From NCBI RefSeq assembly GCF_015350805.1, contig NZ_JADKSG010000001.1:372001-436000 (forward strand): a DNA stretch of 64,000 nt, given 5' to 3'. The notes below the pieces were generated by a model that was not told where the DNA came from, ran no database searches, and saw nothing but the letters and a program-made list of their open reading frames with translations. The DNA is from Herbiconiux sp. VKM Ac-1786. Its GTDB lineage: Bacteria; Actinomycetota; Actinomycetes; Actinomycetales; Microbacteriaceae. A program made the translations under genes and the position numbers. Shown piece after piece: positions 3,736 to 27,996 of this stretch (position 1 is its first letter; each line of letters begins with the position of its first letter).

Positions 3736-4856
<1,121 letters not shown>

Positions 4857-10091: not shown

Positions 10092-10111
10092 GCACCGAGC
10101 GGTCCTCGCGC

Positions 10112-10468: not shown

Positions 10469-10554
10469 GCCTCCACCCCACCTGGAACGCCGTCTCGCTC
10501 CAACAGGGTTGACGCCTCCCGCCGGCAGACGCTACCGCGCCTCGTCACACAGCC

Positions 10555-10926: not shown

Positions 10927-11435
10927 GACGACCCCGGCGTCCGCGCCCCGGCGGCGTGCGCTCGGCCGCGGGTGATCCGCTCCACCAGCGCCCGGCCGGC
11001 GAGAGCGGCTGCGACGCCGGTGACGAGGCTCCCGACGGCGTACAGCGCGGCGTCGCCCACCGACCCGCGAGACGCCGCCGCGGCGGCTCCCACAGCGAAC
11101 GACCCGTACGTCGTGAACCCGCCCATGAACCCGGTGCCGACGACGAGCCGCACCCGGCGCCGGAACATCGGTGTGCCCCGCCGCGCGACGAGCGCCGCGT
11201 AGACGACCGCGAGTGCGAACGACCCCACGACGTTGATGACGAACGTCGTGTGGAGCACGAGATCGTGCGGCGTCGCCAGGTCGAGCGACTCCCGCGCGAC
11301 GGTGCCGACCGCTCCGCCGACGAACACCATCGCGACCGCCGACCACGAGCGGTGGTCGGGCGTCATCCCGTGCGGGGTGGGGGCCATCGTGCCCGTGGGC
11401 GGTGCCGCCGTGATCGATCCCGATGCCCGCACCAT
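10923..11435 (-). CDS. crcB: Fluoride channel subunit CrcB/Fluc (first gene of pair)
   Basis: The 170-residue reading contains a full Fluc domain from about residue 30: FVGGAVGTVARESLDL, then TFVINVVGSFALAVVYAAL with the conserved Asn, then GTGFMGGFTTYGSFAVGA. The first 20-30 residues (Pro/Thr/Gly-rich, with internal ATGs at codons 17 and 24) are not part of the fold, so the true start may be downstream of 11435. It is translationally coupled to the second crcB. The island attachment repeat lies only 89 bases upstream, so integration put foreign DNA directly before this operon. Confidence 0.88.
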   Translation of the reverse strand: MVRASGSITAAPPTGTMAPTPHGMTPDHRSWSAVAMVFVGGAVGTVARESLDLATPHDLVLHTTFVINVVGSFALAVVYAALVARRGTPMFRRRVRLVVGTGFMGGFTTYGSFAVGAAAAASRGSVGDAALYAVGSLVTGVAAALAGRALVERITRGRAHAAGARTPGSS

Positions 11436-11524
11436 CAGCAGCCCCCCGTGTCGTCGTCACGACCATCATCGGAGGAGCGGCACGACGGGCCACCCGACAA
11501 ACGTCGGGACTTGGACCGCCGAGG

Positions 11525-11548
11525 CGGTGCCCCTGGAGGGACTCGAAC
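11525..11548. repeat. Left attachment-site repeat (attL-type core)
   Basis: This 24-base sequence is identical to 27922-27945. On the minus strand it reads as the T-arm and acceptor end of tRNA-Arg (GTTCGAGTCCCTCC then AGGGGC-A), but no tRNA body is attached, so it is the displaced 3' fragment left by integration. The bases just outside differ at both copies (11524 g against 27921 a; 11549 t against 27946 c), which fixes the limits of identity. Confidence 0.9.
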
Positions 11549-11653
11549 TCGTTAGGTAGGCCCGCGACACCTTGGCAAACCCGCAACTTCCGCGTATTTC
11601 CGCGGTTCTTGAATCATATCGATGCCCCTGAATCAGGCTTTCTTGAAACCAAT

Positions 11654-11672
11654 TGTGGGCAAAATGTGGGCA
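11654..11672 (+). repeat. Paired TGTGGGCA repeats, left end (candidate integrase arm sites)
   Basis: Two TGTGGGCA octamers lie at 11654-11661 and 11665-11672, starting 11 bases apart. A near-identical pair (TATGGGCA and TGTGGGCA, also 11 bases apart, same strand) lies at 27832-27850 near the other end. Short direct repeats with helical spacing beside att cores are typical of the arm-type sites bound by the N-terminal domain of lambda-type integrases. Function is inferred. Confidence 0.6.
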
Positions 11673-11868
11673 TGGAATCGAACGCTTCGTCCTGTTACCA
11701 TCGTGACGCATCAGGACATCGCTAACGTCCGTTAGCAAGTCGGGATCCGTCTGGGCCACGAGAATTCCTGAGGGCTTTGCCTCCTTAAACAGTGCGGACA
11801 ATGGAACTGATGCACGCAAAGAGGCGCAGTCGGTCGCCTTGTAGATTCCTCAGCTGGAAGACCTAGCT

Positions 11869-13263
11869 TCAGCGCAGCGCGTCTGCCGCACTGCGCGCGA
11901 CTGCAAGCGCGACCGGAGCGGGAACTCCGCGCTTCAAGTGCCGAATCGCGTGCGCGTACGAGACGGCCATGAACTGCTCGCGCCCCGCTTCCCTCACCCC
12001 CCACTCGCGACAGCGAGCACGAGTCTCACGGAGTTCACCGTTCGGCAAGTAGTCGCCGTCCGCCCAGCGCTCATAGTCGAACGAACTTCCACGTGCCACC
12101 AGAGGCGAGCCAGGATGGAACATGAGGCTCATCTCGAGGGTGATCGGATCTTCGCCTGCCGGCCCATTTCCTGTGTAAGCGAAATCGACCATCATCGGCC
12201 GACCTCCATCCACCACGAGAACGTTCTCGCCGTGAAGATCTCCGTGACAGACGCGCGATCTCATGTCAAGAGTGAGCGATTCCACATCCGAAAATTCGTC
12301 AACCGAGGCTCCCGCCGATATCAGCTCGGCATCAGACAGATGTGCACGTCTAAGGTCTGCAACGGTCACGCTCGACGTGTCGCCGACGTTCCACGGCACC
12401 AGCGTCAGTTGAAGTTTGCTAATTACGCTCGAGCCCGCACCGTCGTCGACTGCAGCCAGGTCGAAGAGAGTCGTCGGATTTGACGCCAAGCTTGAGAAAT
12501 ACGCAGCGCGGTCACGGAGTCCTGCACTGAGAGTTTCAATTGTCGGCGCCCAGTTGCTCGCATCCAGATAGCCCTCGACCCACAAACGCCGACGTTCCAA
12601 TTCGTCGAGGACCCACTCTCTCGCGTCGGCCTTCACAAAGGCACGCATTTCGGGCGCGCCGAGGCGCCGCATGGTGACAATCGCGTTTGTCGATCCGGAT
12701 AGCCCGCCCGCACGGGTGACTTCAACCTCCGTCATCCCACGATCCACCGCGAACTGTGAGATGGCTCGCCGGAGGAGCAAGTCGAGGTCGGTCGGGGCCG
12801 TGAATTCAAGCCCAACAATCTTCAACTGTCCCTCTTGAATCGGTCTTAGCCGATTGGTGAATTCGCCCTCGACGCCTTTGACGACGGCTTGGCACATGCG
12901 CAACGCTGGGACACCATGGGCTGCAGCAGGCGATGCTCCGGAGGTGTAAGGCTCAGTGTCTTCGATTGTGCCGAACGCCGACAGAATGATGACAGGCGTA
13001 CCTGGCTGAGATTCGCGCAGTTTTGCCACAACCGCGAGCCCGTTCGTCTCACTGAGTGAAAGATCGCGGGGTTTAGCCGGAATTCTCAAGTCGCACACCG
13101 CGAGGTCGTAGACATTCGCCGCCATAAGCTCCAGGGCGGACTGAGTATCGCCCGCCCAGTGCACTACCGCGTCGGGCATCATGTCGGCGATGTCCGCCTC
13201 GGCTGCCCTGCGGCTGTCCGCATTGTCTTCGACCAGCAGTACGTCGAATCGATCCGGGCTCAT
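11869..13263 (-). CDS. Receiver domain fused to an APH-like kinase domain
   Basis: Taking the ATG at 13263 (ATGA overlap with the kinase gene; a GTG at 13272 is also in frame) gives 464 residues. The N-terminal ~125 residues are a response-regulator receiver: acidic pair in VLLVEDN, phospho-acceptor Asp in LAVCDLRIP, and Ser in VIILSAFG; the usual C-terminal Lys of a K-P motif is not apparent. A linker leads to a phosphotransferase-like domain with VCHGDLHGENVLVV and a following MMVDFAYTG Asp, as in APH/choline-kinase folds. No DNA-binding domain is present. It is last in an operon with a GHKL kinase and an ATPase. A phosphorelay that switches a small-molecule or protein kinase effector is the inference. 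Confidence 0.8.
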   Translation of the reverse strand: MSPDRFDVLLVEDNADSRRAAEADIADMMPDAVVHWAGDTQSALELMAANVYDLAVCDLRIPAKPRDLSLSETNGLAVVAKLRESQPGTPVIILSAFGTIEDTEPYTSGASPAAAHGVPALRMCQAVVKGVEGEFTNRLRPIQEGQLKIVGLEFTAPTDLDLLLRRAISQFAVDRGMTEVEVTRAGGLSGSTNAIVTMRRLGAPEMRAFVKADAREWVLDELERRRLWVEGYLDASNWAPTIETLSAGLRDRAAYFSSLASNPTTLFDLAAVDDGAGSSVISKLQLTLVPWNVGDTSSVTVADLRRAHLSDAELISAGASVDEFSDVESLTLDMRSRVCHGDLHGENVLVVDGGRPMMVDFAYTGNGPAGEDPITLEMSLMFHPGSPLVARGSSFDYERWADGDYLPNGELRETRARCREWGVREAGREQFMAVSYAHAIRHLKRGVPAPVALAVARSAADALR

Positions 13264-14132
13264 TGTGGCCACCTTGCTTCTGCGGACGTCCCCGCATCCT
13301 TTCGTGGGCGCAGCATGATGGTGCCCCCCAAAGACTTCATCGCTTGCACGGCCGTCGGAAGGCCGAGGCCGAAGTGGCCAGCTTCACTGCGGGAAGTTGT
13401 CCCAATTTCTAAGGCTGCGGCCAAGCCGTCCGGGGGAAGACCCTCACCGTCATCTAGCACTGCAATCCAGGCTTCTGCATCATTCCGCCCCCAGTTGATT
13501 ACGACCAAATCCCTGACCGCGGCGCTAGCCTCGACAGCGTTCCTTATAAGGTTGGCGAAGGCAAGTGAAATCAAAGTTGGATCGCCTTCGACGAGGACGG
13601 GGTCGGACCGGCCAAGGATGACCTCTTTCGCCAGCCCCTCGCTACTGACCTGGGACGCGACCACTTCACTCAGATCAAACTGCGTGACCCGCGGCGATTG
13701 TGCCGCCTCTCCTAGATCTTGCAGCGCCTCAAGGAGTTCACCCATTCTGACTAATTCGACACGAATCGCGCTCGTTTCATAGCCATCGCCGACGTCACTT
13801 TTGGCGGCGCGGCCGATCGCCTGCACCACGGGGCGAACTTCGTGAAGCACCCGCTTGGTAGCGATCTGCAGCGCTTGCGCCTGCACCGCAGGCACCCCTT
13901 CCTGGGCCGTCATAGATTCAGTCGTGACATCTGGCAGCAAAGCCCCCGTGCTGAGCATCGATATCACTCGATCCAGCACTCGTTGAGTCCAGGAGTCCGT
14001 CTCGCGAGCGCGAGACGTCGCAACGAGGTCCAGATCCTCTGCTACCGCACACTCCAGTAGCGAGCGAGCGGCGCGCAGCCGAGTCGTCGCGGAGTCGTCC
14101 CTTAGTGCTTCGATGGCTTCAACGCGATTCAC
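13260..14132 (-). CDS. Soluble GHKL-type sensor histidine kinase
   Basis: The 290-residue protein has no membrane span. Residues 1-60 are helical and HEAT-like, followed by a DHp-like helix with His97 in KRVLHEVRPVVQAI. The HATPase domain shows the N box (LAFANLIRNAVEAS, Asn194/Asn198), G1 box (LDDGEGLP, Asp227/Asp228) and G2 box (GHFGLGLPT, about 252-260). The start is a GTG whose GTGA overlaps the end of the ATPase gene (14129-14132); its stop overlaps the receiver-kinase start. Cytoplasmic location and coupling to an SMC-like ATPase suggest it senses an intracellular event, possibly through that ATPase. Confidence 0.85.
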   Translation of the reverse strand: MNRVEAIEALRDDSATTRLRAARSLLECAVAEDLDLVATSRARETDSWTQRVLDRVISMLSTGALLPDVTTESMTAQEGVPAVQAQALQIATKRVLHEVRPVVQAIGRAAKSDVGDGYETSAIRVELVRMGELLEALQDLGEAAQSPRVTQFDLSEVVASQVSSEGLAKEVILGRSDPVLVEGDPTLISLAFANLIRNAVEASAAVRDLVVINWGRNDAEAWIAVLDDGEGLPPDGLAAALEIGTTSRSEAGHFGLGLPTAVQAMKSLGGTIMLRPRKDAGTSAEARWPQ

Positions 14133-15970
14133 CTCGCAGCGCCGCCGAGGCCGTAGAACTGGGCTCGCGTTTCGAAGGCCGCGCGCCCACCCTCCATCAG
14201 CTCCGAGATGGCGCTGACGATTGGTGAATCCTCCAGCGATCCCGATGCAGCCGCTCTTCCTCGTTCTCCGTCGGAATCCATAAGAATCACGCGAGCCGCG
14301 TCGCCAAGTACCGGGATGTTGGCGTTATGCGACGAAAAGATTGTCTGAGCGCTCCCGCGGCGTTCGCGTACCGCTGCTATCAGGGTCGACACGATGAACG
14401 CATTGTCTAGATGGTCTTCCGGCTGATCCACTACAAGCACGGTATTCGGCAACGCAAGAAGAATTGGTAAGACCACGGTGCATCGTTGGCCAATCGACAG
14501 ATGCTGGATTGGTTTGTACTCCGGGCCGTCAAGCAACTCGAGTGAGACGTCGTCTTCGACGTCGATCGCGACTATGGCACCGACCCCACCTTGTTTCAGG
14601 GCCGCGAGGACAGAAGAAGCGCGGTCAGCGGGAAGACCAGTCGCTCGAGCAAGATCCTCGAATGCACCAGTCTCAGTCCATTCCACCAGTTCGAATGGAG
14701 CGACAGATGTGGCAAGTGATGGGGCCAGGTTGTTGTAGTGGAGGCCACTCCCACGTAACGACGCGACGATCGCCGAAATGTAGGATTCGAGACGTTCCCC
14801 CGCGGACACTTTCACACGAATCTGTGGGCCCAGTTGAGCGTTGAGCAATTCGGCTACACCCTGTCTCGAGGTGAGCCGATCCGCCCGCTTTGCTGAAAGC
14901 GACTCGTAGGAAGCCCGGCGCCGTTGCTTCGTTAGATCGAGCCGCCTCACGAATTCGGATCGCCTTGCATGGAGCGCGTCAAGCTGTCCTTTAATCTCTT
15001 CAAGCTGTTGAACGCGCCGCGTCGCCTGGCTAAGACCGTCCTGGGCCGAGTCGAGTCGTTGTCGAAGTGCGCGTGAACTCGCGTCAAGCTCGGCGCGGTG
15101 TCCAACCACGGTTTGGGCTTCGCGAGTCAGCGCGGAGACAGCTTCCTCGAACTGGACCGCGGCTTGTTCTAGCAACAGCCGCGCGCGATTGACGCGCTCG
15201 GCGCTAGCTGTCTCTGAAACGGTATTCGCAATACTTTCAGCTACCTCTACAGCGCGATCCCGCGTCTCAGAGGCCCGAGCACTTAGCTCGACTACCGATT
15301 CCCTCGCGTAGAGAAGCGCGTTCTCGCGACGCGCGAGCTCGGCGAGGCGGGTCTGTGCGCCAGTGAGGGCTTCCTGGTCAGCAAGTGTTGCGGTTGAACT
15401 CGAAAGAAGCGCCTCCTGGGCGCCACGTGCTTCCCCCAACTGGGTGTCGACCGCAGTGGCGCCGGATAGCGACTCGTTTGCCTTGTCCAATTCCGCCAGA
15501 CCAGACGCGATCTCGTCCGTTAGCGAGGCGGCGAGGGCGCCGGCAGCGAGAATTTCGGCTGCGGTATCCCGCGCAGTGGGCAGGAACCGATCCAACAGAG
15601 CGATTCGACCGTCAGGGCTGACGCCGATTGATTCGATCTCACTCTGGGCCAGAACAGTGCAAGCAGGCGAGACGGTGCCCGAACTAGTCACGCCCTCCGC
15701 AGTCCTCGTGAGCGTCCAACGCTCGTCACCCTCCCTCAGCGTGAGCGTTACCGCGCCGCCATCAAGTGTCGCTACAGCTTGCTGCTCGCCCTTCGTGCCG
15801 GCATCAGTTGTGAACGAGCCCGCGTCCAACGCGTATCTGATCAACTCGATGACAGACGTCTTGCCAGTGCCCCGTGCGCCGATCAAGACGTTGAGAGCCG
15901 GATCCAGGGAAACATCGAAATCGGCAAGAAATCCTTCGTGCTCAACTTCGATCCGCTCGATGAATGCCAT
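14129..15970 (-). CDS. SMC/RecF-like AAA ATPase with coiled coil
   Basis: The 613-residue protein starts FIERIEVEHEGFLADFDVSL, like RecF/SMC proteins, with Walker A GARGTGKTS (residues 31-39). A long Ala/Glu/Arg-rich helical stretch (about 150-390) is predicted coiled coil. The C-terminal half has the ABC signature LSIGQR (491-496), Walker B VLVVDQPEDHLDN (511-523; Gln-Pro-Glu replaces the usual Glu-Pro) and H-loop FSSHNANIP. It is the first gene of a three-gene operon, with an SD-like GGAGGG before the ATG at 15970. Similar ATPases sense DNA ends or foreign replication intermediates in several defence systems. Which known family it belongs to, if any, cannot be settled by eye. Confidence 0.85.
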   Translation of the reverse strand: MAFIERIEVEHEGFLADFDVSLDPALNVLIGARGTGKTSVIELIRYALDAGSFTTDAGTKGEQQAVATLDGGAVTLTLREGDERWTLTRTAEGVTSSGTVSPACTVLAQSEIESIGVSPDGRIALLDRFLPTARDTAAEILAAGALAASLTDEIASGLAELDKANESLSGATAVDTQLGEARGAQEALLSSSTATLADQEALTGAQTRLAELARRENALLYARESVVELSARASETRDRAVEVAESIANTVSETASAERVNRARLLLEQAAVQFEEAVSALTREAQTVVGHRAELDASSRALRQRLDSAQDGLSQATRRVQQLEEIKGQLDALHARRSEFVRRLDLTKQRRRASYESLSAKRADRLTSRQGVAELLNAQLGPQIRVKVSAGERLESYISAIVASLRGSGLHYNNLAPSLATSVAPFELVEWTETGAFEDLARATGLPADRASSVLAALKQGGVGAIVAIDVEDDVSLELLDGPEYKPIQHLSIGQRCTVVLPILLALPNTVLVVDQPEDHLDNAFIVSTLIAAVRERRGSAQTIFSSHNANIPVLGDAARVILMDSDGERGRAAASGSLEDSPIVSAISELMEGGRAAFETRAQFYGLGGAAR

Positions 15971-16354
15971 TTTCGCCCTCCACTGGTCTAGGACAACATC
16001 CTTCCATTTAGATTCCTCAGCCGCGCGCTACGGACGATCACTATCGAAATGAGCTCCGTCGTTGCAGAACCGTCACGTCGTCCTCCAGAGGAGAAGTCGC
16101 GTTGTGGTCCGTTGGGGCCGGACCTTCGAGCAACTTCGGATCTCCTCACTCACGGAGACGCTGCCGCATTATCGCCGGTGCCGTGTCTTAACACAGCGAG
16201 TGCTTCGCGAACCCCCGACCGGGCTCCGTCGGAACCGGTATTCGCCCGACGGCCTCATCATCGAACGCTGGCGACAAATGCGCCCTATCGGTCGCGTTTC
16301 GGCGATGATCGACTTGGAGAATGCCACATTCAATCACGGAGTAGGAGTGCGTAC
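15971..16354. promoter_or_regulatory. Divergent intergenic region between the ATPase operon and the large NTPase
   Basis: The 384 bases separate two divergent units and should hold both promoters. A frame upstream of the large NTPase is open from 16049, but its residues are Pro/Arg/Ser-rich with no recognisable fold, and a good ribosome site (TAGGAG at 16342-16347) sits just before the GTG at 16355. I therefore treat this as non-coding. A perfect operator palindrome was not seen. The shared spacer raises the possibility that both units are regulated together. Confidence 0.5.
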
Positions 16355-19300
16355 GTGGTGCTTGCTGGGGGTGCAGCCGACAAAGTCGGTGGAGTAATGG
16401 AGAGCACGTGGACCGTCTTGCGTATGACCGAGATCCTCGACGGGACAGCATCTGCCATGACGGTGGAACCCGTCGCAGGCGATGGAGCAGAGCTCTGGGT
16501 AGACCACGCCGGCCAGAGGAGCTTCGATCAGGTCAAGTTCCGGTCGTCGCGTTCCTGGACGATCGGACGTTTGACTAGCGACGGAGTACTGCCGAAGGTG
16601 CTTCCCCACCTGCGTGCGGGAGCCGCGATTACTCTCGTTATCACTAGCGCGTCCGATGAACTCGATCGACTGATCGCTTACGCGAAGGCGTCCGAAAGTT
16701 CTGCAGTCTTCGAGAGTGTCGCGTCCGAGAACCGTATTCTCGTCGACCGACTTTCCTCGTCATGGCATGCAGAGATCGAGGAGACTTGGCAGTATCTCCG
16801 CTCCATCACAGTGAGACATGAGAATCTCGAACGGCTCGAGGAGCTCGTCCGGCTGAAGCTCGGAACACTGATCCGCGGCGACGGCCGAGAGGTCGCCGAC
16901 CTACTGGCTTCGTGGATACCCAAAATCTTGCATCGCGAGATCACTGCGCGGGACATACTCGACATGCTCGAGAAGCGCGGATTCCCCGCAAAACCGGCCG
17001 CTGACCACGGAAGCGCCATGCTGAAATTGCGCGAGACGGTACAGCGGCAGGTAGCGCGAGTGCACGATTCGCTTCCTCCACTCGGCGCCATCGAACGACA
17101 CGAGAAGTCGATTATCATCGATCACCTCACGCGAGAGAATGGACCGCGAATAGTCATCGTTCACGGCAAGGCCGGGTCCGGAAAGTCAGCACTCACTGCA
17201 GCAGTCGCATCAGATATCTTCGACCGCGGCCACCCAGTGGCAGCGGCGCGCATGGATCGCGTTCCCGAACACGTGTCGACCGCGCGGCAACTCGGCGGCA
17301 TCATCGACTTGGATGACTCACCCGTGATCCTTATCTATGAGGCACGCAGGGATAGCCGTCCGGGCCTTCTTCTCGTCGACCAACTCGACGCCGTTAGCAC
17401 GTATAGCGGCAGGATGCCCGACACCTTCGACGCCGTCTCAGACCTAATCCACCAGAGTCGGGCCCTTCGACACGTCAAACTCCTCCTGGCCGTTAGGACG
17501 ATCGACCTCGAACAGGACCCGCGGATGCGTCGTCTCGCGCAGGACTCGGACGTGGAAACCGTCGAGGTTGGCGACCTCGATCCCGAGGACGTTGCAACCT
17601 ACCTTCGTGACCTTGGGTACGACCCGACCACGCTAAGCCCACAGACTCTCGATCTACTCCGAGTGCCGATCCACCTGTACGTGTTCTGTCAGCTCGAGCG
17701 TGAAGACCGCACACAGGCATTTCAAGCACTGCCCGACCTATATTCGTCCTACACAACGACGTTCCGAAACCGACTGCATCACCGCGGTCTCGATGACCAC
17801 TGGGCAGCGACTTCGAAGATCCTTGTGGAGAGAATGAGTCAGGACGAAACGCTGAGCGCCCCGAAAGCGATACTCAACGCGCTCCCACCGTTGTACATTG
17901 ATGCGCTGATTTCCGAGAACGTGCTCATCGACGACAACGGACGGGTCGCATTCTTTCACGAGACATTCTTCGACTTTCTGTTCGCTCGATCTTTCAGCCA
18001 TCGTGGTGAGGATCTGGTCCAATCGTTCGTCGCGAGCGGACAGGGTCTATTCCGGCGCTCGCAGCTTCGCCAGGTTCTGGCCTATATCGCGTCGCGGGAG
18101 CCGCTGATTTTGACATCTCAGGTCCTCGCGATCGCGCGGAGCGAAATGCGTCCGCACCTCGTCGCGACGGCTCTCACCGTGCTACCTCAGAGCACTCCAC
18201 AGGACGGTGACTGGGACTTACTGGAGCCCACGCTCATGAATCCCGGGCTGCTCGGGGAAGCGGTCCAAGGCCTTCTTCGAGTGCCTGCTTGGTTCGACGA
18301 GGCCGATCGGCTAGGACGCATCGAGGCACTACTAGACCAAGAGGACTCCGCTCACAGCACGCTCGCTGCGGTAATCACGCACGTGTCGAGGGTGTCCGGT
18401 CGCGTCCGAGCATTGATCGCCCCGCTACTTGCTGAGGCCACGTCCTACACGTCGGCCCTTCGGCAGGTGTTCGACCATGCCGAGTCGTCCGCATCAGTGG
18501 ATTATGCCCTCGAGTTGCTGAGTAACGGCGCCCTCGATGGAGATGACGGGGACTTCTTCGATCCCCTGGGAGCCAGGCTCTTCTACCGCCTGAATGAGTC
18601 TTCTCCTCTGGGAGTTATCGAGCTTCTTAGGGTCGTCCTTGAGCGAGCGATCCGGATTGCAGACCAACGGGGTGAATTTGATCCGTTTGCAGCGGGGATC
18701 GTGTCAGGCAAAGTACGGATCAGAGGCCTGAAGGAAATCGCAGCGGCCCATCCCATGGAATTCGTAGGCGCAGTGGGTCCACTGGTCCTCCGCCTCGGCG
18801 ACGAGCGCCAAGACTCAATTGAGCGAGCGTCCGGGACACGATGGAGATGGGTCATCAGGTCCAACCACCATGAATTCGTCGACGAGCTGTTCTTTGCCTA
18901 CCGGGAAGCTCTCCGAGAACTCGCCCGCAGGAAGCCCGATGCGCTCTGGCCGATTCTCGATGACTTCGACCAACGGCGATCGCGCGCATTTGATTTCCTG
19001 ACCGCGTTCGCACTTCGATCCGCTCCAGCAGACAAAGCTGTGGACTGGTTGCTTGCGGATGAGTCACACCTGCAGGTCGGATGGTCGGACAGTTCACATT
19101 GGGAGTCGCGACGATTGATCGAGCGAGCAAGTAGACGCTGTTCGGAGGTGTCTTTTCGCGCACTCGAAATCGCGCTGATGAACTATGTGACGCCGAATGA
19201 GCGCCGCGCACATAACTTGCGCTGGCGAGGGATGACGGAGTTAGAGTTTCTGACCGCGCTATCCGCGGAGCGCATCCAGGACTCAACTTCGTCGCGCATT

Positions 19301-20719
19301 GCCGAGCTCCGGAGAAAGTTCCCCAACTGGACGCCCCGTGCACCACGAGGGGTAATTAGCGGCACAGTCGCTTCTCCAATCCCTCCGGGTGCTCCAGAAA
19401 AGATGACTGATACCCAATGGGTATCAGCTCTCCAGCGCTACCCCGATCAGCACGACAGTTCCCGATGGCTAGCAGGCGGCTCATGGGAACTCTCGCAGGA
19501 CCTCGCTCGTGTCGCTGGAGCCGACCCGCCGCGCTTCACAGCACTTGCCCTCACCTTCCCCCCGAGTATGGTTCCCGAATACGGCGCGAGCATTCTACGC
19601 AGTGTGGCCGATCACATCGACGAACGCTCACTGACTCAGTTGTGCTGGAAGCTCGTCGCAGACCACCCCGCGCACGCAAGCCGCCCGATCCTCGACGTCA
19701 TCGATACGCTCTCGGAACCGCTCAGTGATGACATGCTTGATCTACTCCGGCTCGCTGCGGCGGACAGCGATCCAGACGCGCCCGAATCGGGGGAGGCCGC
19801 GTCCGACGCATCGGAAAGCGATCTCACCACCATCGGCCTGAATTGCGTTCGCGGCCGGGCGGCGTGGACCATTGCGCGCCTGCTATTCAGAGACCCAAGT
19901 CAGGCCAGCCGTTTGGAGCCACTGGTCAGCGAACTCGTCGGTGACATCGTCCCCGCCGTCCGCGTCATGGCGGCAGAGGCCATACTTGCACTCTCAAACG
20001 CAGACCGCGTGCGAGCACTCGAACTCGCCCGGAGGATCCTGAACGGTGACGATGAACTCTTCGCCGCACGGCCCGTCCTTCAGCTGCTTCGTTACTGCGT
20101 CCTCTGGGAGCCGGATGAGTTCGCATCCGCGCTCGACAGAGCACTCGTGGGCCCTGACCAGGAAGCTGCAGGAGCCGTGTGGGTGAACAGTCATGTCAAC
20201 GGCGCGATCCGCTCGACCCGCTTCGGCGCATTCGCCGATTTGAGCGAGTCTGCACGCGCGGGCGCTGCGGCAGCACTCTGCAGAAATCCCGCGCTTGACC
20301 CAGACCTCGTAGTCGATATTTTCTCAGATGAGTCCTCGGTGGTGCGCGGGAAGGCGACGGCCGCGATCCAAGAACTGGACTCGATAGATGAGAAACTCGC
20401 GAGTGAATTGTTGACGCGATACATAGAAAGCGAGGCTCTTCCAAGCGCCATTGAGTTCGCGCTCGCCGCCCTTGAAAGTGCAACATTCCTCCTCCCGTCG
20501 GTCTCCCTCAATCTGTGTAGTCGTGCCCTCTCGATATTGGAAGACGCACCAAAAGAGCAGCGTCACTGGATCGACTGGTCTCACCTCGTGACTGTGCTCG
20601 TGCGGTTGTACCGGCAGAGCCCGAGCCTCCGGGAGGACTGTCTAGATCTGATCGATCGGTTGGTTCTACTTCGTGCATGGGGCATTGAACGCGAACTCGA
20701 CTCACAAAGCGACTCATGA
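16355..20719 (+). CDS. Large STAND-type NTPase with DUF4297-like N-terminal nuclease domain
   Basis: From the GTG at 16355 (SD TAGGAG, 7 bases upstream) the protein is 1454 residues. It opens VLAGGAADKVGG, a start I associate with NACHT-type proteins carrying a DUF4297-like dsDNA nuclease domain; the PD-(D/E)xK pattern is Glu46/Asp50 then Q-V-K at 59-61. Walker A is VHGKAGSGKSALT (271-278 core) and Walker B GLLLVDQLDAVS (338-345), followed by a winged-helix-like HETFFDFLFARSF segment. The remaining ~950 residues are helical, HEAT/TPR-like repeats. This sensor-NTPase-effector layout matches antiviral STAND proteins (Avs-type), where repeats bind a phage product and activate the nuclease. A second such NTPase follows after 172 bases. 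Confidence 0.8.
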   Translation: MVLAGGAADKVGGVMESTWTVLRMTEILDGTASAMTVEPVAGDGAELWVDHAGQRSFDQVKFRSSRSWTIGRLTSDGVLPKVLPHLRAGAAITLVITSASDELDRLIAYAKASESSAVFESVASENRILVDRLSSSWHAEIEETWQYLRSITVRHENLERLEELVRLKLGTLIRGDGREVADLLASWIPKILHREITARDILDMLEKRGFPAKPAADHGSAMLKLRETVQRQVARVHDSLPPLGAIERHEKSIIIDHLTRENGPRIVIVHGKAGSGKSALTAAVASDIFDRGHPVAAARMDRVPEHVSTARQLGGIIDLDDSPVILIYEARRDSRPGLLLVDQLDAVSTYSGRMPDTFDAVSDLIHQSRALRHVKLLLAVRTIDLEQDPRMRRLAQDSDVETVEVGDLDPEDVATYLRDLGYDPTTLSPQTLDLLRVPIHLYVFCQLEREDRTQAFQALPDLYSSYTTTFRNRLHHRGLDDHWAATSKILVERMSQDETLSAPKAILNALPPLYIDALISENVLIDDNGRVAFFHETFFDFLFARSFSHRGEDLVQSFVASGQGLFRRSQLRQVLAYIASREPLILTSQVLAIARSEMRPHLVATALTVLPQSTPQDGDWDLLEPTLMNPGLLGEAVQGLLRVPAWFDEADRLGRIEALLDQEDSAHSTLAAVITHVSRVSGRVRALIAPLLAEATSYTSALRQVFDHAESSASVDYALELLSNGALDGDDGDFFDPLGARLFYRLNESSPLGVIELLRVVLERAIRIADQRGEFDPFAAGIVSGKVRIRGLKEIAAAHPMEFVGAVGPLVLRLGDERQDSIERASGTRWRWVIRSNHHEFVDELFFAYREALRELARRKPDALWPILDDFDQRRSRAFDFLTAFALRSAPADKAVDWLLADESHLQVGWSDSSHWESRRLIERASRRCSEVSFRALEIALMNYVTPNERRAHNLRWRGMTELEFLTALSAERIQDSTSSRIAELRRKFPNWTPRAPRGVISGTVASPIPPGAPEKMTDTQWVSALQRYPDQHDSSRWLAGGSWELSQDLARVAGADPPRFTALALTFPPSMVPEYGASILRSVADHIDERSLTQLCWKLVADHPAHASRPILDVIDTLSEPLSDDMLDLLRLAAADSDPDAPESGEAASDASESDLTTIGLNCVRGRAAWTIARLLFRDPSQASRLEPLVSELVGDIVPAVRVMAAEAILALSNADRVRALELARRILNGDDELFAARPVLQLLRYCVLWEPDEFASALDRALVGPDQEAAGAVWVNSHVNGAIRSTRFGAFADLSESARAGAAAALCRNPALDPDLVVDIFSDESSVVRGKATAAIQELDSIDEKLASELLTRYIESEALPSAIEFALAALESATFLLPSVSLNLCSRALSILEDAPKEQRHWIDWSHLVTVLVRLYRQSPSLREDCLDLIDRLVLLRAWGIERELDSQSDS

Positions 20720-20891: not shown

Positions 20892-23800
20892 ATGAATCTC
20901 ATCGACCGAGTGCGCACGGGACTTGCGAATCCGAGATCGACAGTGGATCCAGTCGTGTTCGAGGAATTCGCTACTACCGTTCTCGGGGAGATATACCCCA
21001 ATCTAGTTCCGGTCCGAGGTGGAACCGACTGGGGCTCAGATGCCGACCTCATTAGCGACTCAGGTGACCGAGTCTGGATGACCATCACCAGCTCTCCCTC
21101 TATCGAGGGCGCGCGCAAGAACCTGGCGAGCTCTCTCGATTCCCTGCTAGCGCACAATATGGACGGTTCGAAGGTGATAGCGGTTAGCCTCGCTTCGATT
21201 GACCGCCGAGCCCGAGATCGGCTCAAGGGCGCTGCGAGCGCCCGCGGCTTCGTCCTCGTGCAGACATACGATCGAAACTACTTTGGCGATCGCCTGCTCC
21301 GCCTCGGTGACTGGCGCGAGAAGCTCCTGGGTCTCCGTAGTGGCCCATACGCGCTGTCCTCGAAATCGCCGCGCGCCGTCTCAGTGACGCAGGACGATTT
21401 GGTTGGCCGAGAGGACCTCGTGGCGCGAATCGCCCAGGCAAATGGGGATGTGATCGTGGTCGGCCCGCCAGGGATTGGCAAGACAGCAGTCGTGGAAGCA
21501 GTCCAGGGCATCCGATTCATCGCGGACGAGGAGGCGACGACTGCGCAACTTCTAGGAGACATCATTGACGATGCGCCAACGGTGATCGCTGTCGATGATG
21601 CCGCGCGGATCACTACGATGCTTGCCCGACTCGACACGCTCCGGCGGGCTGAAAAGCTTCGATACCGTATAGTCGCCATCTGCTGGCCACAGCAGCTTGA
21701 AGAAATCGCGAATCATCTTCCCGGTGCGGAGCCAGTCGTGATCGATCCGCTCCCCCGGAGTTTCATTGGGGAGATCTGTCGCAGTCGCGGCATCCGGCGT
21801 CATGACCTCGTGGGACGCGTCGTCCTGCAAGCCCACGGTCGTCCAGGGTGGGCTGTCCGGCTGATCGAGACGTTTCTCGCCGACAAGACACGCAGCGACT
21901 TCTTCACTGGGCAAGCCGTCAACGGATGGGTCCGCGCCTACTTGCTCAGAGCTGGACTGCCCGCTGATTCGCTTTCGCTACTTTCGGTACTGAGCATGGT
22001 CGAGTACGTCGAGACAGACGATGTAGATCATCTCGCCAATCTGCTCGGCATGACCAGGCGTGAGCTCGCCGCCGCAGTCAACGCGCTCGCCGCTGGCGGT
22101 CTACTCGACGTTGAGGATGGACGCAACCAGACACTTCGCTACTCGGTCGTGCCTCCTCAAGTGCGCGCAAACCTGATCGCCGACGCCTATCTCGGCGAAT
22201 TCATCCCCATCATCAGCGCTCGGACGCTCTACGACAGCTGGCCTGACCGACGTCTCGCAATCGCAGCGGGCATGGCGCACGCAGCGCGTGTGAGTGGCAT
22301 GCACGACCATCCCCTAGTCACCGAGATCGCCCTCGCCGGACTAGTCGACGCAGCGCTTCCAGGTGATACTGGCCGCCTCATCCAGCATTGCCTGCTGCTC
22401 AACACGCCTACGGCGTCAGCCGCACTCGACGTTGTTGAGCGGGCCGTAGCCTCGATCAGCGTCGAGCACGCGACAAATCACTATGCTCTCGCCGTGATTG
22501 GCGGCCATGAACCGACGGCAACTGCACGATTCCTCGAATCTGTGCTGACTGGAGCATCGGTGACCACGAAAGTTGCCGGCTCCAGTGTCCAACGATTCGT
22601 GCAAGGTGTCCGCCAATTTGGCCCCGTCCCAGAGCCCGATATTGAAACCCTCCTGCGAACGGCAAGAGATGCGCAACGCTGGGCCTCTACTCACTCAAGC
22701 TTGCGCTCCGGGGAACTTCACGCGCAGATGGTCGCGGCTCTGCTCGCTCCTGTCTTCGACGCCACTTATCAGGCCCCCGATGCCGTCATGTCGATCAGTA
22801 TGATCAGCGGTGTCCACAGCGTAGCGGGTATGGACACACTAGTCAGCGAAATCTGGCACCCATACTGCGCGGCCATCCCCGGGCAGCTCAGCCCCGGAGC
22901 AGCCCTCTCGTTGATCGCACTCGTCGGTGCGTGGGCACGTGCGGGGCGGGGGCACGGGGTGGCCCATAACGGAAAGATTCCTCGTGCCCAGCAGACAAGA
23001 GCGCGAGTGCACGGACGCTCTATCGGCAGATGGGTTCGCGACCATCTTCCGGATAACCCGTTCATCCGAGACAAGTTTCGCCGTAACGCGCTCCTGCTCG
23101 GCCTTGATCTTGTTGAGCCCGATTCCCTTGTCGCACGACTACTGCCGCCGCGCCACAAATCAGCGGACCGGTTGTCGGCGTTCGAAGAGCAAGCCACAGC
23201 AATCCGTTCGGCCATTGCGGATATGTCGATCGCTGAGGTTATGAACGAGGTCGTGATGCTCAAGCGCTACGAAGCTGAGGCACTGGGTGCGTCCGGCAGC
23301 CTTTGGAGGGTATGGCGCGCCGTCACCGACCTCCACGAAGATCTCTTACCTTGGCTCGGCGCCATTGAGTCGGCAGACCTTCTTGACGACGCCGCAGAAC
23401 TAATCGGAGCTGCACACACACGATCCCAACTCAGCCGTGCTCGAATCAGCGAGTATATGGGGCACCCTGCCCTTCGTGGCGCTTTGGTGAGCGCAGCCCT
23501 GACAGGCGACGCCGAACATAGCGCGATCATCATGGCTGACATACTTCCGACTGACCTTCTCGGGTTCGAGTACGACATGGGTCGCATTGCGCCGACCGCG
23601 CTTCATGGTCTTCTCGGGCATGACAACGACGTGACGGCGGCGACCGCCGCTCTTCTAATGGCGGACCCTGAGCACGCAGAGCTCGTTGGGCTCAGACCCA
23701 GTACTCACGAATTATGGCGTTGCGCGGCATCCAAAATACGTCTGCCCTTTGCCGGCGCGACCACGGACACCGCTGCCCACTTACGCGGTCTCGCTTCTCT

Positions 23801-24326
23801 CGCACCCGATCTCTACGCCGAGTTGCTGCTCCGGCCCGATGCCACTGATCTAGACATCGGATATCAGATCCCGTGGAATGACGTCCAGCTGTCGGCCCCA
23901 GATCTACCAGGCAGCCTACGCAGGGCAATCTACCTTCACTGGCGAGAAAGCGTCGTATCGCACTATGCCCTTGCAGCCGTCACTGGCGCTGACATTGACT
24001 GGCTGCGAGGGTGCGTCGAGGACGGCATTGTCACGCCTAGTGCCGCGACTTGGCTGCAAGGTAGTGATGGTCCCGAGCCAACACTCGAGGAAATTGCTGC
24101 GCTCCTCATCCCGCACGGAGTCGCACCGCTCGCCATTGCGACGTCGATCGAACTGGGCACGCAGTGGGGAGAGGACTATGAACGAATCGAGACATACCTT
24201 GACCGATTCAACGGGATGTCCGACCATCAGGATGAAGGTGTCCGGGCAATGAGCGTGGCGGCCGTCGCTCACTACACTCCTAAGCTCGAGAAGGCACGCG
24301 CAGATGCTCGCCGACGTGCAATCTGA
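20892..24326 (+). CDS. STAND-type NTPase with Mrr-like N-terminal domain
   Basis: The 1144-residue protein has a clear SD (GGAGGAG) five bases before the ATG. Residues 18-90 look like a restriction-endonuclease fold: FEEFATTVL (Glu24), GGTDWGSDADL (Asp50/Asp52); but the expected Q-x-K strand reads VWMTITSS, so catalysis may be lost or rewired. Walker A is VVGPPGIGKTAVV (191-198 core) and Walker B PTVIAVDDAARI (about 229-240). A winged-helix-like segment follows (LLSVLSMVEYVETDDV, about 363-378), then ~700 residues of helical repeats. It lies in the same orientation just after the first STAND protein, so the two probably form one operon and may work as a sensor pair. Confidence 0.78.
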   Translation: MNLIDRVRTGLANPRSTVDPVVFEEFATTVLGEIYPNLVPVRGGTDWGSDADLISDSGDRVWMTITSSPSIEGARKNLASSLDSLLAHNMDGSKVIAVSLASIDRRARDRLKGAASARGFVLVQTYDRNYFGDRLLRLGDWREKLLGLRSGPYALSSKSPRAVSVTQDDLVGREDLVARIAQANGDVIVVGPPGIGKTAVVEAVQGIRFIADEEATTAQLLGDIIDDAPTVIAVDDAARITTMLARLDTLRRAEKLRYRIVAICWPQQLEEIANHLPGAEPVVIDPLPRSFIGEICRSRGIRRHDLVGRVVLQAHGRPGWAVRLIETFLADKTRSDFFTGQAVNGWVRAYLLRAGLPADSLSLLSVLSMVEYVETDDVDHLANLLGMTRRELAAAVNALAAGGLLDVEDGRNQTLRYSVVPPQVRANLIADAYLGEFIPIISARTLYDSWPDRRLAIAAGMAHAARVSGMHDHPLVTEIALAGLVDAALPGDTGRLIQHCLLLNTPTASAALDVVERAVASISVEHATNHYALAVIGGHEPTATARFLESVLTGASVTTKVAGSSVQRFVQGVRQFGPVPEPDIETLLRTARDAQRWASTHSSLRSGELHAQMVAALLAPVFDATYQAPDAVMSISMISGVHSVAGMDTLVSEIWHPYCAAIPGQLSPGAALSLIALVGAWARAGRGHGVAHNGKIPRAQQTRARVHGRSIGRWVRDHLPDNPFIRDKFRRNALLLGLDLVEPDSLVARLLPPRHKSADRLSAFEEQATAIRSAIADMSIAEVMNEVVMLKRYEAEALGASGSLWRVWRAVTDLHEDLLPWLGAIESADLLDDAAELIGAAHTRSQLSRARISEYMGHPALRGALVSAALTGDAEHSAIIMADILPTDLLGFEYDMGRIAPTALHGLLGHDNDVTAATAALLMADPEHAELVGLRPSTHELWRCAASKIRLPFAGATTDTAAHLRGLASLAPDLYAELLLRPDATDLDIGYQIPWNDVQLSAPDLPGSLRRAIYLHWRESVVSHYALAAVTGADIDWLRGCVEDGIVTPSAATWLQGSDGPEPTLEEIAALLIPHGVAPLAIATSIELGTQWGEDYERIETYLDRFNGMSDHQDEGVRAMSVAAVAHYTPKLEKARADARRRAI

Positions 24327-24870: not shown

Positions 24871-25991
24871 ATGGCAGGCAGCGTGACCCCGTACAGCACC
24901 TCGCAAGGCAAGCGATACCGCGTGCGGTACCGGAAGCCGGATCGCGCCCAGACGGACAAGCGGGGGTTCAAGACCAAGCGCGAGGCCGAGCTGTTCCTCG
25001 CCTCAGTGACGGTGTCAAAGGCGGCCGGTGACTACATTGATCCAGCTCTGGCTCGCGTCTAGGTCGGCGATCTCGCTCCTCTGTGGCTGCGCTCGAAGTT
25101 TTGGTGCTCAAGCCGTCGTCGTCAAAGCCGCTTGAGGTCGCATGGGGCGTTCATGTGTCAGAGCGATGGGGGCACCGCGAAATCTCCACCATCGTTCCCT
25201 CCGAGGTGCAGGTCTGGGTGAGCGAGCTGGCGGGTCGCCGGTCGCCTTCCGTGGTGATCCGAGCGCACGGAGTGCTCGCGGGCATCCTCGACATGGCCGT
25301 CATTGACCGTCGCCTTCCCCGGAACCCGGCGCGCGGAGTGAAGCTGCCCCGCAAGACCGGGAAGCTGAATCGCGTCTACCTCAGCCACGACCAAGTTCAT
25401 ACGCTCGCCGGCCTGTCTGCGCATCCGACGCTCGTGCTTTGCCTCGCCTACACCGGCATCCGTTGGGGAGAGGTGACCGCGCTGCGCGTTCGGCACATCA
25501 ACTTCCTTCGGCGCCGGCTGAACGTCGAGGAGAACGCTGTGAAGGTTGGCGCCATCATCCACCTCGGCACGACCAAGGGGCATGAGCGTCGATCCGTGCC
25601 CTACCCGGAGCTGCTCAGCGCGGGCCTAGCCGAACAGTGCGCCGACAAGGGGCCCACGCAGCTCGTGTTCGGTGGCGGCACCTTCCACATGAAGTCGCCG
25701 GACTCCGTCGACGGATGGTTCGTGAACGCCGTCCGCCGCGCGCAACAGGCCAACCCCGACTTCCCCTTCCTCACCCCGCACGACCTTCGGCACACGGCCG
25801 CGTCGCTCGCGATCAGCAGCGGTGCGAACGTGAAAGCGGTGCAGCGGATGCTCGGCCACGCCTCGGCCGCTATGACCCTCGACACCTACGGGGATCTGTT
25901 CGACGACGACCTCGAGCTGGTGGCCGCAAAGATGCAGGACGCAGCACGCGAGGCGAGTGTCGGCAAGAGCTGGGCGATCAACCTGGCGTAA
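24871..25991 (+). pseudogene. Tyrosine recombinase (phage-type integrase), disrupted
   Basis: Reading from the ATG at 24871, an AP2-like N-terminus (YRVRYRKPDRAQTDKRGFKT) runs 63 residues into an in-frame TAG at 25060-25062. The same frame continues with expected sequence (VGDLAPLWLRSK), then the homologous reading moves to another frame near 25095-25115, where KPLEVAWGVHVSERWGH begins the core-binding domain. The catalytic domain is intact: Arg in YTGIRWGEVTALR, HDLRHTAASL with His and Arg, LGHASAAMTLDTYG with His and Tyr. So there are two lesions, a stop and a frameshift. The remaining 3' frame could still be translated from a GTG at 25083, but would lack the arm-binding domain. The element is probably fixed in place. 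Confidence 0.85.
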
Positions 25992-26110: not shown

Positions 26111-26851
26111 ATGCGTGCTGTTGATGCTCTGGAAGTTCTCGAACTGCTCGGTTCGACGCAGCGCGGTCTCGTGACGACCGCTCAGGCTCGCGAATCGGGC
26201 CTGTCGGGCGTAGACCTGACCCGCCTTACCGACTCCGGGAAGCTTCTCCGTGTCCGCCACGGCGTTTATGCGCTGCCCTCAGCGGGCGTGGACCGGCTGC
26301 AAGACTTGCGTGGGGCATGGCTAGCGGCCACGGCGAATGGGGACGTCGTCGTTTCTGGCGCCTCTGCGGCCGTTGTGCATCGGCTTGGTGACCTTGTCCC
26401 CGCGGCCCACGAGTTCACTGCCCCGGTGCGACGCCAGAGCACGCTGCCAGATCTCCGCTTCCATCGCGCCGAGTTGACAGACAACGATGTGACCGTGGTC
26501 GACGGGCTTCCGGTGACCACGGTGGTGCGTACGGCCGCTGACCTCGCGGCGGCGTCGCTGGATTCCGATCACCTCGCCAGCGTTCTCTCTGCCGCGGTCG
26601 AGGATCAGGATGTCGACGTAGAGGAACTCGCGCGGGCGCTCTCCCCATACGCCACGCGCTACGGGTTCGATTCGGGGCGAGCGCTTCTCGCAGAGGTCGC
26701 ACCCGGATACCTGGCATCAGCACTCCGCAGCGTTGTTCGCGCGGCGGTCACTCGCTCACCCCAGTTTCGTAAGCAAGCTTTGAAGCTTCTCGAAGAATCA
26801 GATGGCGCGAAGACGCTGGTGTCACTCCTCGAGCAACGTTTTGCGTCATAG
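26111..26851 (+). CDS. AbiEi-type antitoxin / transcriptional repressor (type IV TA)
   Basis: The 246-residue protein begins with a winged helix-turn-helix typical of AbiEi antitoxins: STQRGLVTTAQARESGLS, then LTRLTDSGKLLRVRHGVYAL (about residues 16-56). The C-terminal domain contains VVSGASAAVVHRLGDLVP and VVDGLPVTTVVRTAADLA, the usual AbiEi pattern. It has a strong SD (GAGGAGGT) and sits 27 bases before the nucleotidyltransferase toxin gene. In this family the antitoxin represses the operon and counters the toxin without stable complex formation. Its place at the right end of the island fits a maintenance and anti-phage role. Confidence 0.85.
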   Translation: MRAVDALEVLELLGSTQRGLVTTAQARESGLSGVDLTRLTDSGKLLRVRHGVYALPSAGVDRLQDLRGAWLAATANGDVVVSGASAAVVHRLGDLVPAAHEFTAPVRRQSTLPDLRFHRAELTDNDVTVVDGLPVTTVVRTAADLAAASLDSDHLASVLSAAVEDQDVDVEELARALSPYATRYGFDSGRALLAEVAPGYLASALRSVVRAAVTRSPQFRKQALKLLEESDGAKTLVSLLEQRFAS

Positions 26852-26878
26852 AGCGCCCCAACATTGGAGGAGATACAA

Positions 26879-27814
26879 GTGACGCTAACAACAGTGCAGT
26901 TGGCGAACCTCGCGCGGTCGCTTCGGTCAAAGCTGAACAACGAAGCACGTCGGCGTGGTGTCACCGCGGATGTCATAAGGAAGCAATACATCTTCACGGT
27001 CTTCCTGAGCAGGTTGTTTTCTACGAAGCCGCAACCACCATGGATCCTCCTCGGCGGGAACGCGCTGCTCATTCGCACCGGCACTGGACGCTTCACACAG
27101 GACATCGACCTGGCCCGCGAAAGCGAGTGGAAAACGACCGAAGACGCACGTGCCGAACTGCAATCACTCGCTGACGCCAGCGCAGACAGGGATCCATTCA
27201 GCTTCGTGATCGTCTCAGTCGAACCGCACTCTGATCCTGACCCGGACGGATACGGTGCGAAGACGGCGAAGGCGAGGGTGCAGGCACTCCTCGGCACCCA
27301 GGCCTTCGAGACGTTCACCATCGACCTCACCGAAAGGCGTCACGTCGATGCACCCGTCGACCAGGTGCCCCTCCGCGCGATCATCGACCACGACACCCTC
27401 GCTGATCTCCCTTCTGTGCCGACTACTCCGCTCGAGAACCATCTGGCCGATAAGGTGTGCGCGATGTACGAGCGACACGGGAGCGCCGGCGACTCGCCCT
27501 CCACCCGCTACCGCGACCTCGCCGACATCGTTCGGATTCTGGACGTCGGCCCCATCGATGCCGCTCGCCTCAAGGAAGTGCTCGACCGCGAATCGGGTCG
27601 GCGGAGCACCACCCTACCGAGCCGCATGGAGGCGCCTGCCGAAGAATGGCGGACCGCGTTTCCCCGCCAGGCACGAACGTTCGCTGAATACCCGAGCAAG
27701 CTCTATGAACTTGAGGCCTCGCTCGACGAGACACGGCCGTGCCTGGATCCCATTCTTTCCGGCGAGCGGACCTCCGGCACGTGGGATCGTGAGAAGCGCA
27801 CCTGGTTCGACTGA
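26879..27814 (+). CDS. AbiEii/AbiGii-type nucleotidyltransferase toxin
   Basis: The best start is the GTG at 26879, preceded by GGAGGAGA; an in-frame TTG at 26864 lies within that SD. The product has 311 residues. The nucleotidyltransferase signature is ILLGGNALLIRTGTGRFTQD followed by IDL (about residues 57-79), with the GG, the Arg and the Asp-x-Asp of the family. A conserved late helix, ENHLADKVCAMYERHG, and YRDLADIVRIL follow, as in AbiEii proteins. Related toxins block growth by transferring nucleotides, some onto tRNA acceptor ends. It forms a two-gene operon with the AbiEi-like gene; abortive infection or island stabilisation is the expected role. Confidence 0.85.
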   Translation: MTLTTVQLANLARSLRSKLNNEARRRGVTADVIRKQYIFTVFLSRLFSTKPQPPWILLGGNALLIRTGTGRFTQDIDLARESEWKTTEDARAELQSLADASADRDPFSFVIVSVEPHSDPDPDGYGAKTAKARVQALLGTQAFETFTIDLTERRHVDAPVDQVPLRAIIDHDTLADLPSVPTTPLENHLADKVCAMYERHGSAGDSPSTRYRDLADIVRILDVGPIDAARLKEVLDRESGRRSTTLPSRMEAPAEEWRTAFPRQARTFAEYPSKLYELEASLDETRPCLDPILSGERTSGTWDREKRTWFD

Positions 27815-27921: not shown

Positions 27922-27945
27922 CGGTGCCCCTGGAGGGACTCGAAC
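27922..27945. repeat. Right attachment-site repeat (attR-type core)
   Basis: This is the exact 24-base match to 11525-11548. It covers the 3' 21 bases of the tRNA-Arg gene (T-arm 3' half, acceptor stem and discriminator) and three further bases. The tRNA beside it is complete, so recombination restored the gene. Confidence 0.9.
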
Positions 27946-27996
27946 CCCCAACCCTTTCCTTAGGACGGAACTGCTCTTCCATTGAGCTACAGAGGC
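27925..27996 (-). tRNA. tRNA-Arg (anticodon CCT)
   Basis: The minus strand folds as a 72-base cloverleaf: acceptor GCCTCTG / CAGGGGC (one G-T pair), D arm GCTC...GAGC, anticodon loop G-T-C-C-T-A-A on a TTCC/GGAA stem, T arm GGGGG-TTCGAGT-CCCTC, discriminator A; CCA is not encoded. Anticodon CCT reads AGG, a rare codon in GC-rich actinobacteria. The gene is the integration target of the island. Confidence 0.93.

Follow-up and report, generated by a model that had tools for sequence, protein, structure and literature searches.

Within a 64,000-nt stretch of the genome of the actinomycete Herbiconiux sp. VKM Ac-1786 (contig NZ_JADKSG010000001.1, positions 372,001 to 436,000; hereafter the window), three adjoining genes encode an SMC-like ATPase, a soluble histidine kinase and a response regulator whose receiver is fused to a kinase of the APH fold. 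We consider it rather probable that they form a mobile three-gene signalling system of defence type, and this trio may constitute an undescribed bacterial immune system. The genes are listed here with the evidence on which each assignment is based:

14129..15970, minus strand: SMC/Rad50/RecF-type ABC ATPase, 613 aa (open reading frame (ORF), Pfam, predicted fold)
13260..14132, minus strand: soluble histidine kinase, 290 aa (ORF, Pfam HATPase_c, conserved residues)
11869..13272, minus strand: receiver fused to APH-fold kinase, 467 aa from GTG (ORF, Pfam, predicted fold)

The recurring order and tight spacing of the trio exceed chance. A scan of genome contigs with a profile of the regulator returned 69 loci, in 54 of which the regulator scored at least 120 bits by profile search. 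Kinase and ATPase accompany the regulator in 47 of these 54 loci and, wherever the genes could be placed, the order is ATPase-kinase-regulator with both partners upstream of the regulator (the ATPase is split into two frames in two of the 47, L043 and L047). The seven exceptions comprise three loci at or near contig ends (L035, L057 and L061), three that are broken or partial (L054, L055 and L058) and a solo regulator gene (L029). Eight of the nine plasmid loci that were read carry all three genes in the same order, on plasmids of Rhodococcus, Caballeronia, Phaeobacter, Shinella, Leclercia, Klebsiella, Vibrio and Pantoea, and the ninth, from Piscirickettsia, has a shortened kinase and the regulator only. 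The original prediction, made from the letters of the window alone, had proposed looking for this gene order elsewhere, and these counts bear it out. Trio hosts span five phyla (Actinomycetota, Chloroflexota, Acidobacteriota, Campylobacterota and Pseudomonadota); the regulator is present in 47 of 72,556 plasmid records, 36 of which are from Piscirickettsia, and a scan of viral contigs gave four loci, two of them with the trio. Among 396 genomes of Actinomycetota, ten match the ATPase profile at E 1e-30. Three of these, namely the window genome and those of L022 and L024 (the last two also counted among the 47 loci), carry the arrangement with the APH-fold output, called type I below, and in them the ATPase of about 610 aa is always adjoined by kinase and regulator; the other seven matches are open frames of at least 900 aa.

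The spacing of the genes was measured in the 44 genome loci with a pickable start in all three. ATPase and kinase genes touch or overlap in 36 of them (spacing -29 to +11, exactly -4 in nine), and kinase and regulator genes do so in 36 as well (-26 to +16, exactly -4 in 17). Base reading of both junctions in the window confirmed the overlaps, GTGA joining ATPase to kinase and ATGA joining kinase to regulator. The regulator could start at the GTG at 13272 or at the ATG at 13263; the latter, which yields the ATGA overlap, is the likelier start. The fixed stoichiometry initially read into these overlaps does not follow, since gene overlap alone implies no such thing, and translational coupling is the safer term. 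Compared over 45 loci, the distance matrices of the three proteins show correlations of 0.90-0.92, a level reached in none of 5000 permutations; this demonstrates joint inheritance of the three genes, not contact between their products. The protein alignments exclude loci that fell outside the length limits or offered no usable start, and they retain one near-duplicate pair (L048 and L080).

The ATPase matches Pfam AAA_21 with 37.6 bits (cut-off 27), with SMC_N and AAA_23 below their cut-offs, and its structure model (pLDDT 89.8) resembles the heads of SMC, JetC, Rad50, RecF and RecN; the SMC/RecF-like architecture proposed at the outset is thus upheld. An antiparallel coiled coil spans about residues 133-380, and the sequence contains GARGTGKT, LSIGQR, DQPED and HNANIPVLG, which we take to be the Walker A, signature, Walker B and His-loop motifs, respectively. 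Walker A Lys37 is kept in 48 of 48 aligned rows, as is DQPED. The kinase carries HATPase_c at residues 183-289 (45 bits, cut-off 26.4) and a His97, within LHEVRP, that is invariant in 50 of 50 rows, while its N-terminal region matched no Pfam family. It was rightly described as a soluble GHKL kinase: no membrane span is found by hydropathy, the highest 19-residue Kyte-Doolittle mean being 1.23 in the window kinase and 1.22 at the median of the 50-row alignment, where 49 rows lie at or below 1.6 and one above.

The regulator scores above the curated cut-offs of two Pfam families, Response_reg (45 bits, cut-off 30.2) and APH (PF01636; 32.5 bits, cut-off 23.2). Its receiver occupies about residues 8-150, with D61 and K132, and its APH part about residues 168-467, with K214, H343, D345, N350 and D363; a model with pLDDT 94.4 shows both folds. 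In the receiver, Asp16, Ser/Thr98 and Lys132 are conserved in 50 of 50 rows and Asp61 in 49, and in the APH part His343, Asp345, Asn350 and Asp363 are invariant in all 50. The motif HxDxxxxN followed by D is the catalytic set of the APH superfamily, to which the regulator belongs by score, catalytic residues and predicted fold. The fusion of a receiver to an APH-like kinase instead of a DNA-binding domain therefore stands as first described. The window proteins likewise have the make-up of a two-component system, with a phosphorylatable His and HATPase_c on one side and the receiver Asp, Lys and Ser/Thr on the other. The closest folds to the APH part are APH(3')-Ia and maltokinase, and public annotation names the homologues merely as phosphotransferase, response regulator or ATP-binding protein. 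Such a fold under so generic an annotation might belong to a conventional two-component system that serves metabolism or modifies drugs and is passively carried. We hold this to be very improbable: identity to those APH and maltokinase structures is just 11-18%, an SMC-like ATPase is the partner in 47 of 54 loci, the kinase is soluble, and the system occurs rarely and patchily, in 3 of the 396 genomes from the phylum. A function in drug resistance was rejected.

No model in PADLOC, Pfam, NCBIfam or PHROGs covers the whole system, all matches being to single domains or below cut-off; PADLOC has no model that matches the kinase and only weak, receiver-level matches to the regulator. Searches of defence profiles and NCBIfam thus fit the homologues to no named system, a comparison suggested with the original prediction, and no matching system was found among the open-access PMC papers listed in literature searches; an earlier description elsewhere is possible. 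In kind, the trio ranks with Detocs among the two-component conflict systems whose output is an enzyme, and differs from it in input and effector; Detocs is its nearest neighbour in logic, and the ATPases of TrlF and Ppl together with receiver-TCAD9 proteins are its nearest neighbours in sequence. Detocs (DtcA-DtcB-DtcC) is a two-component phage defence made of a histidine kinase, a stand-alone receiver, DtcB, that acts as a phosphate buffer, and a nucleosidase effector. Intracellular sensing and the pairing of a histidine kinase with an enzyme-output response regulator in one operon are common to both, whereas the present trio has an APH-fold kinase as effector, a separate SMC-like ATPase as input and no stand-alone receiver gene. 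Membership of Detocs was rejected on the missing receiver gene and the APH-fold effector.

The TrlF family and Ppl are PHP nuclease-ATPase proteins. A PDB sequence search with the TrlF N-terminus returned no match, and PHP is identified there by motifs seen by eye. The window ATPase scores 234 bits against NCBIfam TrlF (NF045780; curated cut-off 350) and 92.3 bits, in two stretches, against Ppl (NF042955; curated cut-off 1000), and membership of either family was rejected. The TrlF alignment begins at ATPase residue 4, which corresponds to profile position 290, and spans profile positions 290-944, so that the ATPase amounts to a TrlF ATPase without the N-terminal part of about 290 residues. 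In contrast to TrlF and Ppl, which it resembles in the ATPase half, including a DQPED Walker B in 10 of 12 TrlF-like rows, it is a separate protein encoded beside a histidine kinase and a regulator, and it forms a distinct clade. In a tree of 59 rows, type I, type II (see below) and TrlF-like sequences separate with supports of 100/100, 100/100 and 98/91, respectively; type I rows were thinned to 35, and the tree was flagged for long TrlF-like branches that meet and for uneven letter composition. Longer relatives of the ATPase are open frames of 870-1325 aa.

Lamassu, Wadjet (JetABCD) and other SMC-type defence systems share with the trio an SMC-type head with a coiled coil, JetC being among the top fold matches and LmuB giving weak matches. 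Lamassu requires a full-length LmuB plus partner genes. Here, LmuB models match parts only, the best stretch covering residues 4-105 (among the best 25 of 75 families), and no partner gene of Lamassu or of the other SMC-type systems was recognised among the scanned island proteins; membership of Lamassu was rejected.

The effector has relatives of its own. One report ties TCAD9 to vWA-MoxR-VMAP ternary conflict systems (PMC10910872), and an eLife 2020 article on ternary conflict systems, in its passages on their effectors, gives a few active APH kinases and sporadic receivers and mentions no histidine kinases (PMC7159879). A profile comparison matched the window regulator to the receiver-TCAD9 protein of L066 with 99.6% probability (E 9.5e-24, 372 columns), a homology that covers both receiver and kinase. 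Against the TCAD9 profile itself (PF19974), the window regulator reaches 32.8 and 33.5 bits in two scans and the L029 regulator 38.7, all below the curated cut-off of 40, whereas all five receiver-TCAD9 proteins (L063, L066, L067, L069 and L070) pass it. The context differs as well: L063, L067 and L070 feature large NTPases and CHAT-like or TIR-like parts (by eye) in place of an SMC-like ATPase, and GAF-type sensor kinases are neighbours or fused parts in L067 and L070 (by eye). Some receiver-TCAD9 loci lie near STAND-like NTPases (by eye). Together, the receiver-TCAD9 loci are a second home of the receiver-APH effector. The Anaerolinea-type genome of L066 (G1534) has ten TCAD9 matches, several above cut-off, a possible expansion of the effector family.

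In the window, the trio lies within a 16.4-kb island inserted at a tRNA-Arg gene, whose landmarks and AbiE cargo are as follows:

11525..11548, strand not applicable: left attachment repeat, 24 nt, matching the tRNA-Arg 3' end exactly (repeat search)
27922..27945, strand not applicable: right attachment repeat, identical, at the tRNA-Arg 3' end (repeat search)
27923..27996, minus strand: tRNA-Arg (CCT), the insertion site (tRNA search)
25083..25991, plus strand: island tyrosine integrase (Pfam Phage_integrase, 64.9 bits)
26111..26851, plus strand: AbiEi antitoxin (PADLOC AbiEi, E 2.1e-73)
26864..27814, plus strand: AbiEii nucleotidyltransferase toxin (PADLOC AbiEii, E 9.4e-84)

Measured in 2-kb bins, GC content is 59-63% between 12001 and 28000, as against 66-77% in all other bins, and the island proteins that were scanned showed no recognisable phage structural gene. 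A relative of the same genus (L108, genome G399; 7491-13863) has the same tRNA-Arg with DNA akin to the window's integrase (89% identity, the last ~300 nt unmatched) and AbiE genes (83%), and a different cargo, a 524-aa ORF, between this DNA and the repeat; these islands seem to form a family that exchanges cargo at one tRNA-Arg site. An empty-site test failed: the crcB pair is present in three genomes of the genus, but no tRNA was found within the ~1.5-kb flanks retrieved. The island is therefore defined by the repeats, the integrase, the GC drop and the relative with different cargo. On these four grounds, the location in a mobile island that had been proposed holds.

Mobility extends to the other copies. 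In addition to those on conjugative plasmids, a copy on the viral contig L079 lies between a repressor-cII-O-P block and ninB-rusA-Q, genes of lambda-like type, on the opposite strand. A 317-aa protein of the PHROGs family phrog_5094 (unknown function; E 1.2e-165) is encoded there at 3871-4824, between the trio and ninB and on the strand of the trio. The flanks of other copies were surveyed through 119 of 196 nearest-neighbour ORFs (126 were hand-picked for length and seven long ones then dropped), and these 119 proteins include seven integrases; neighbours also include homologues of Hachiman helicase, Shedu, Hma, type I specificity subunits and SoFic. Toxin-antitoxin genes recur as well, with AbiE in the window and on the Vibrio plasmid and VapBC and Fic/VbhA on plasmids. 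Such company, together with the compactness of the operon, would suit an addiction or abortive module in which the APH kinase is a toxin restrained until the relay fires and is kept chiefly for stabilising the element. That seems quite improbable to us, as the operon has no small labile antitoxin partner and a two-step phosphorelay with an ATPase input far exceeds known addiction pairs in complexity.

How a defence system of this composition might work can be outlined from its domains and residues. The ATPase, which is related to the ATPase half of TrlF and Ppl but stands alone, would engage aberrant DNA or replication structures that an invader produces, and this engagement would alter its ATP-dependent clamp state. 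The SMC/Rad50 fold makes an abnormal DNA end, junction or replication structure the likeliest trigger. The altered ATPase would then switch on the soluble kinase, leading to autophosphorylation on His97, from which the phosphoryl group would pass to Asp61 of the receiver; the residues for both transfers are present. The kinase has no recognisable sensor domain and the ATPase adjoins it in 47 of 54 loci, which makes the ATPase its simplest input, and the kinase probably reads the ATPase directly, as far as domain content can tell. The phosphorylated receiver would release the APH-fold kinase, for which the predicted fold and the catalytic residues speak, and phosphorylation of a small molecule or a macromolecule would stall growth or the replication of the invader.

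Related ATPases are connected to other outputs. Three wirings were encountered: to a kinase and a regulator with the APH kinase (type I), to a kinase and a regulator with another domain (type II) and, in one locus, directly to a DNA-binding protein (type III). The type II receiver carries a different conserved C-terminal domain, read in ten loci and additionally in L200 and L202, for which Pfam has no name; Pfam and PDB searches of this output matched the receiver only, and a profile comparison that aligned just 23-24 columns did not establish an OmpR-type fold. In type III, a single locus from the phylum of the Defluviitaleaceae locus that is not among the rows of the ATPase tree, the ATPase gene overlaps that of a protein of 244 aa with a C-terminal winged helix of OmpR type (Trans_reg_C, 47.2 bits against a cut-off of 26.2), and no histidine kinase was found beside the ATPase. 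Among the kinases, type II alone shows hints of HEAT repeats at the N-terminus (HEAT_2, 24.5 and 20.4 bits, below the cut-off of 27.7), and no convincing alignment of N-termini across types I, II and III was obtained. By phylum, 13 of 398 genomes of Pseudomonadota (that of the Agrobacterium locus) match the ATPase at 1e-60; 11 of these have type II, one is the type I seed and one a long frame. In the phylum of the Dehalococcoidia locus, five of 251 genomes match (the seed and four long frames). The phylum of the Defluviitaleaceae locus has four matches in 259 genomes, made up of two long frames, a type III locus and a broken ATPase, and the phylum of the Bryobacterales locus has three in 199, made up of the seed, a long frame and a type II copy. 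Judged from these sequences, the ATPase seems to be a reusable module for sensing inside the cell, with outputs that can be swapped; since its relatives feed other outputs, it may be a sensor of general use within the cell and not one dedicated to defence.

Several side observations concern these relatives. Directly upstream of the type II copy L200, in the phylum of the Bryobacterales locus, is a type III restriction-like helicase gene, with a caspase-like gene nearby. Three type II copies (L140, L141 and L142) occur within one genome, G435; a sigma-54 activator gene lies downstream of L140, and the gene upstream of L142 resembles the WYL gene of L139 (by likeness). In L199 (G1195) and L201 (G1160), the related ATPase adjoins a probable thioredoxin reductase gene (by eye), a shared neighbour suggesting that the locus is stably chromosomal; the L201 copy of the ATPase is split over two frames and followed by the end of the contig.

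The type II and III relatives keep alive an explanation in which the trio serves its carrier, as a regulator of mobile elements for superinfection control or for the response of a plasmid or prophage to DNA damage or replication stress. The ATPase would then read the state of the DNA or the replisome and the relay would alter the behaviour of the element, any killing of invaders being incidental; we judge both the role and this mechanism unlikely. They would fit the type II copies L143 and L145, which adjoin DUF669/ssDNA-binding or Sak4-like annealing genes (L143 also being near a methyltransferase and an HTH gene), as well as the coupling of the type III ATPase to a Trans_reg_C protein, the type I copy amid O, P and ninB genes, and L080, which lies near umuC-like and SRAP-like genes (by eye). 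They fit less well with the type I output, an intact APH-type kinase and not a DNA-binding domain, and with the window copy, which resides in an integrase island where the scanned proteins include no recognised phage structural gene. A defence role is preferred because the type I output is enzymatic, the copies are scattered and mobile, and defence genes are among the neighbours.

A number of observations weigh against the defence reading. The type II and III relatives look regulatory, and L029 (7848-9347), from Dehalococcoidia, is an orphan receiver-APH gene in mid-contig with no ATPase or kinase nearby. One of the 50 regulators lacks Asp61. In SMC and Rad50, the position taken by Gln in DQPED holds the catalytic Glu; with Gln in 48 of 48 rows, the activity of the ATPase may be low, and the presence of DQPED in TrlF-like rows makes this Gln a mark of the class, not specific to the three-gene system. 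The system is also rare, the 398 Pseudomonadota genomes holding type I in the seed genome only. Phage records searched at the protein level for the window regulator gave no match, and neither did E. coli genomes searched at the DNA level for two homologues from enterobacteria, so that the system lacks an annotated setting in E. coli. The distance correlation among the three proteins arises from common descent by itself too. Finally, PADLOC gave 141 family matches at E 1e-15 in the flank survey and 13 in a control that scanned 115 of the 118 ORFs found in 20 stretches chosen arbitrarily from 11 genomes, figures that count families and not proteins and in which the control genomes are unmatched, two of them carrying the system or type II. 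For these reasons, no enrichment of defence genes near the trio is claimed.

Many antiviral sensors either have the effector on the same polypeptide or act through a diffusible nucleotide signal. It is quite possible, and we stop short of calling it probable, that the trio embodies a new signalling principle, in which a two-component phosphorelay takes its input from an ATPase of the SMC/Rad50 type and related ATPases, wired in at least three ways, let bacteria and their mobile elements convert abnormal DNA states into enzymatic immunity or gene control. If true, a DNA-repair-like ATPase signalling by His-Asp phosphotransfer to an enzyme would unite three well-studied machineries, and each proposed step is approachable with standard assays. 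The APH-fold effector raises the question of the substrate that it phosphorylates, and the relatives with other outputs make it possible to compare one sensor directly across several readouts.

The remaining features of the island lie between the operon and the integrase:

16049..20719, plus strand: NACHT/STAND protein, 1556 aa, divergent neighbour (resembles PADLOC candidate PDC-M54A, E 1.4e-15)
20892..24326, plus strand: large island protein, 1144 aa, with only a weak AAA_16 match (Pfam)

An 18-nt near-repeat (89%) closely flanks the operon, at 11837-11854 and 16004-16021; it may be due to chance or be a mark of cargo exchange or regulation, and short repeats near the operon, possibly occurring by chance, were set aside. 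The first ~115 codons of the NACHT/STAND ORF may be untranslated, and this protein and the 1144-aa protein perhaps constitute another uncharacterised defence pair in the island.

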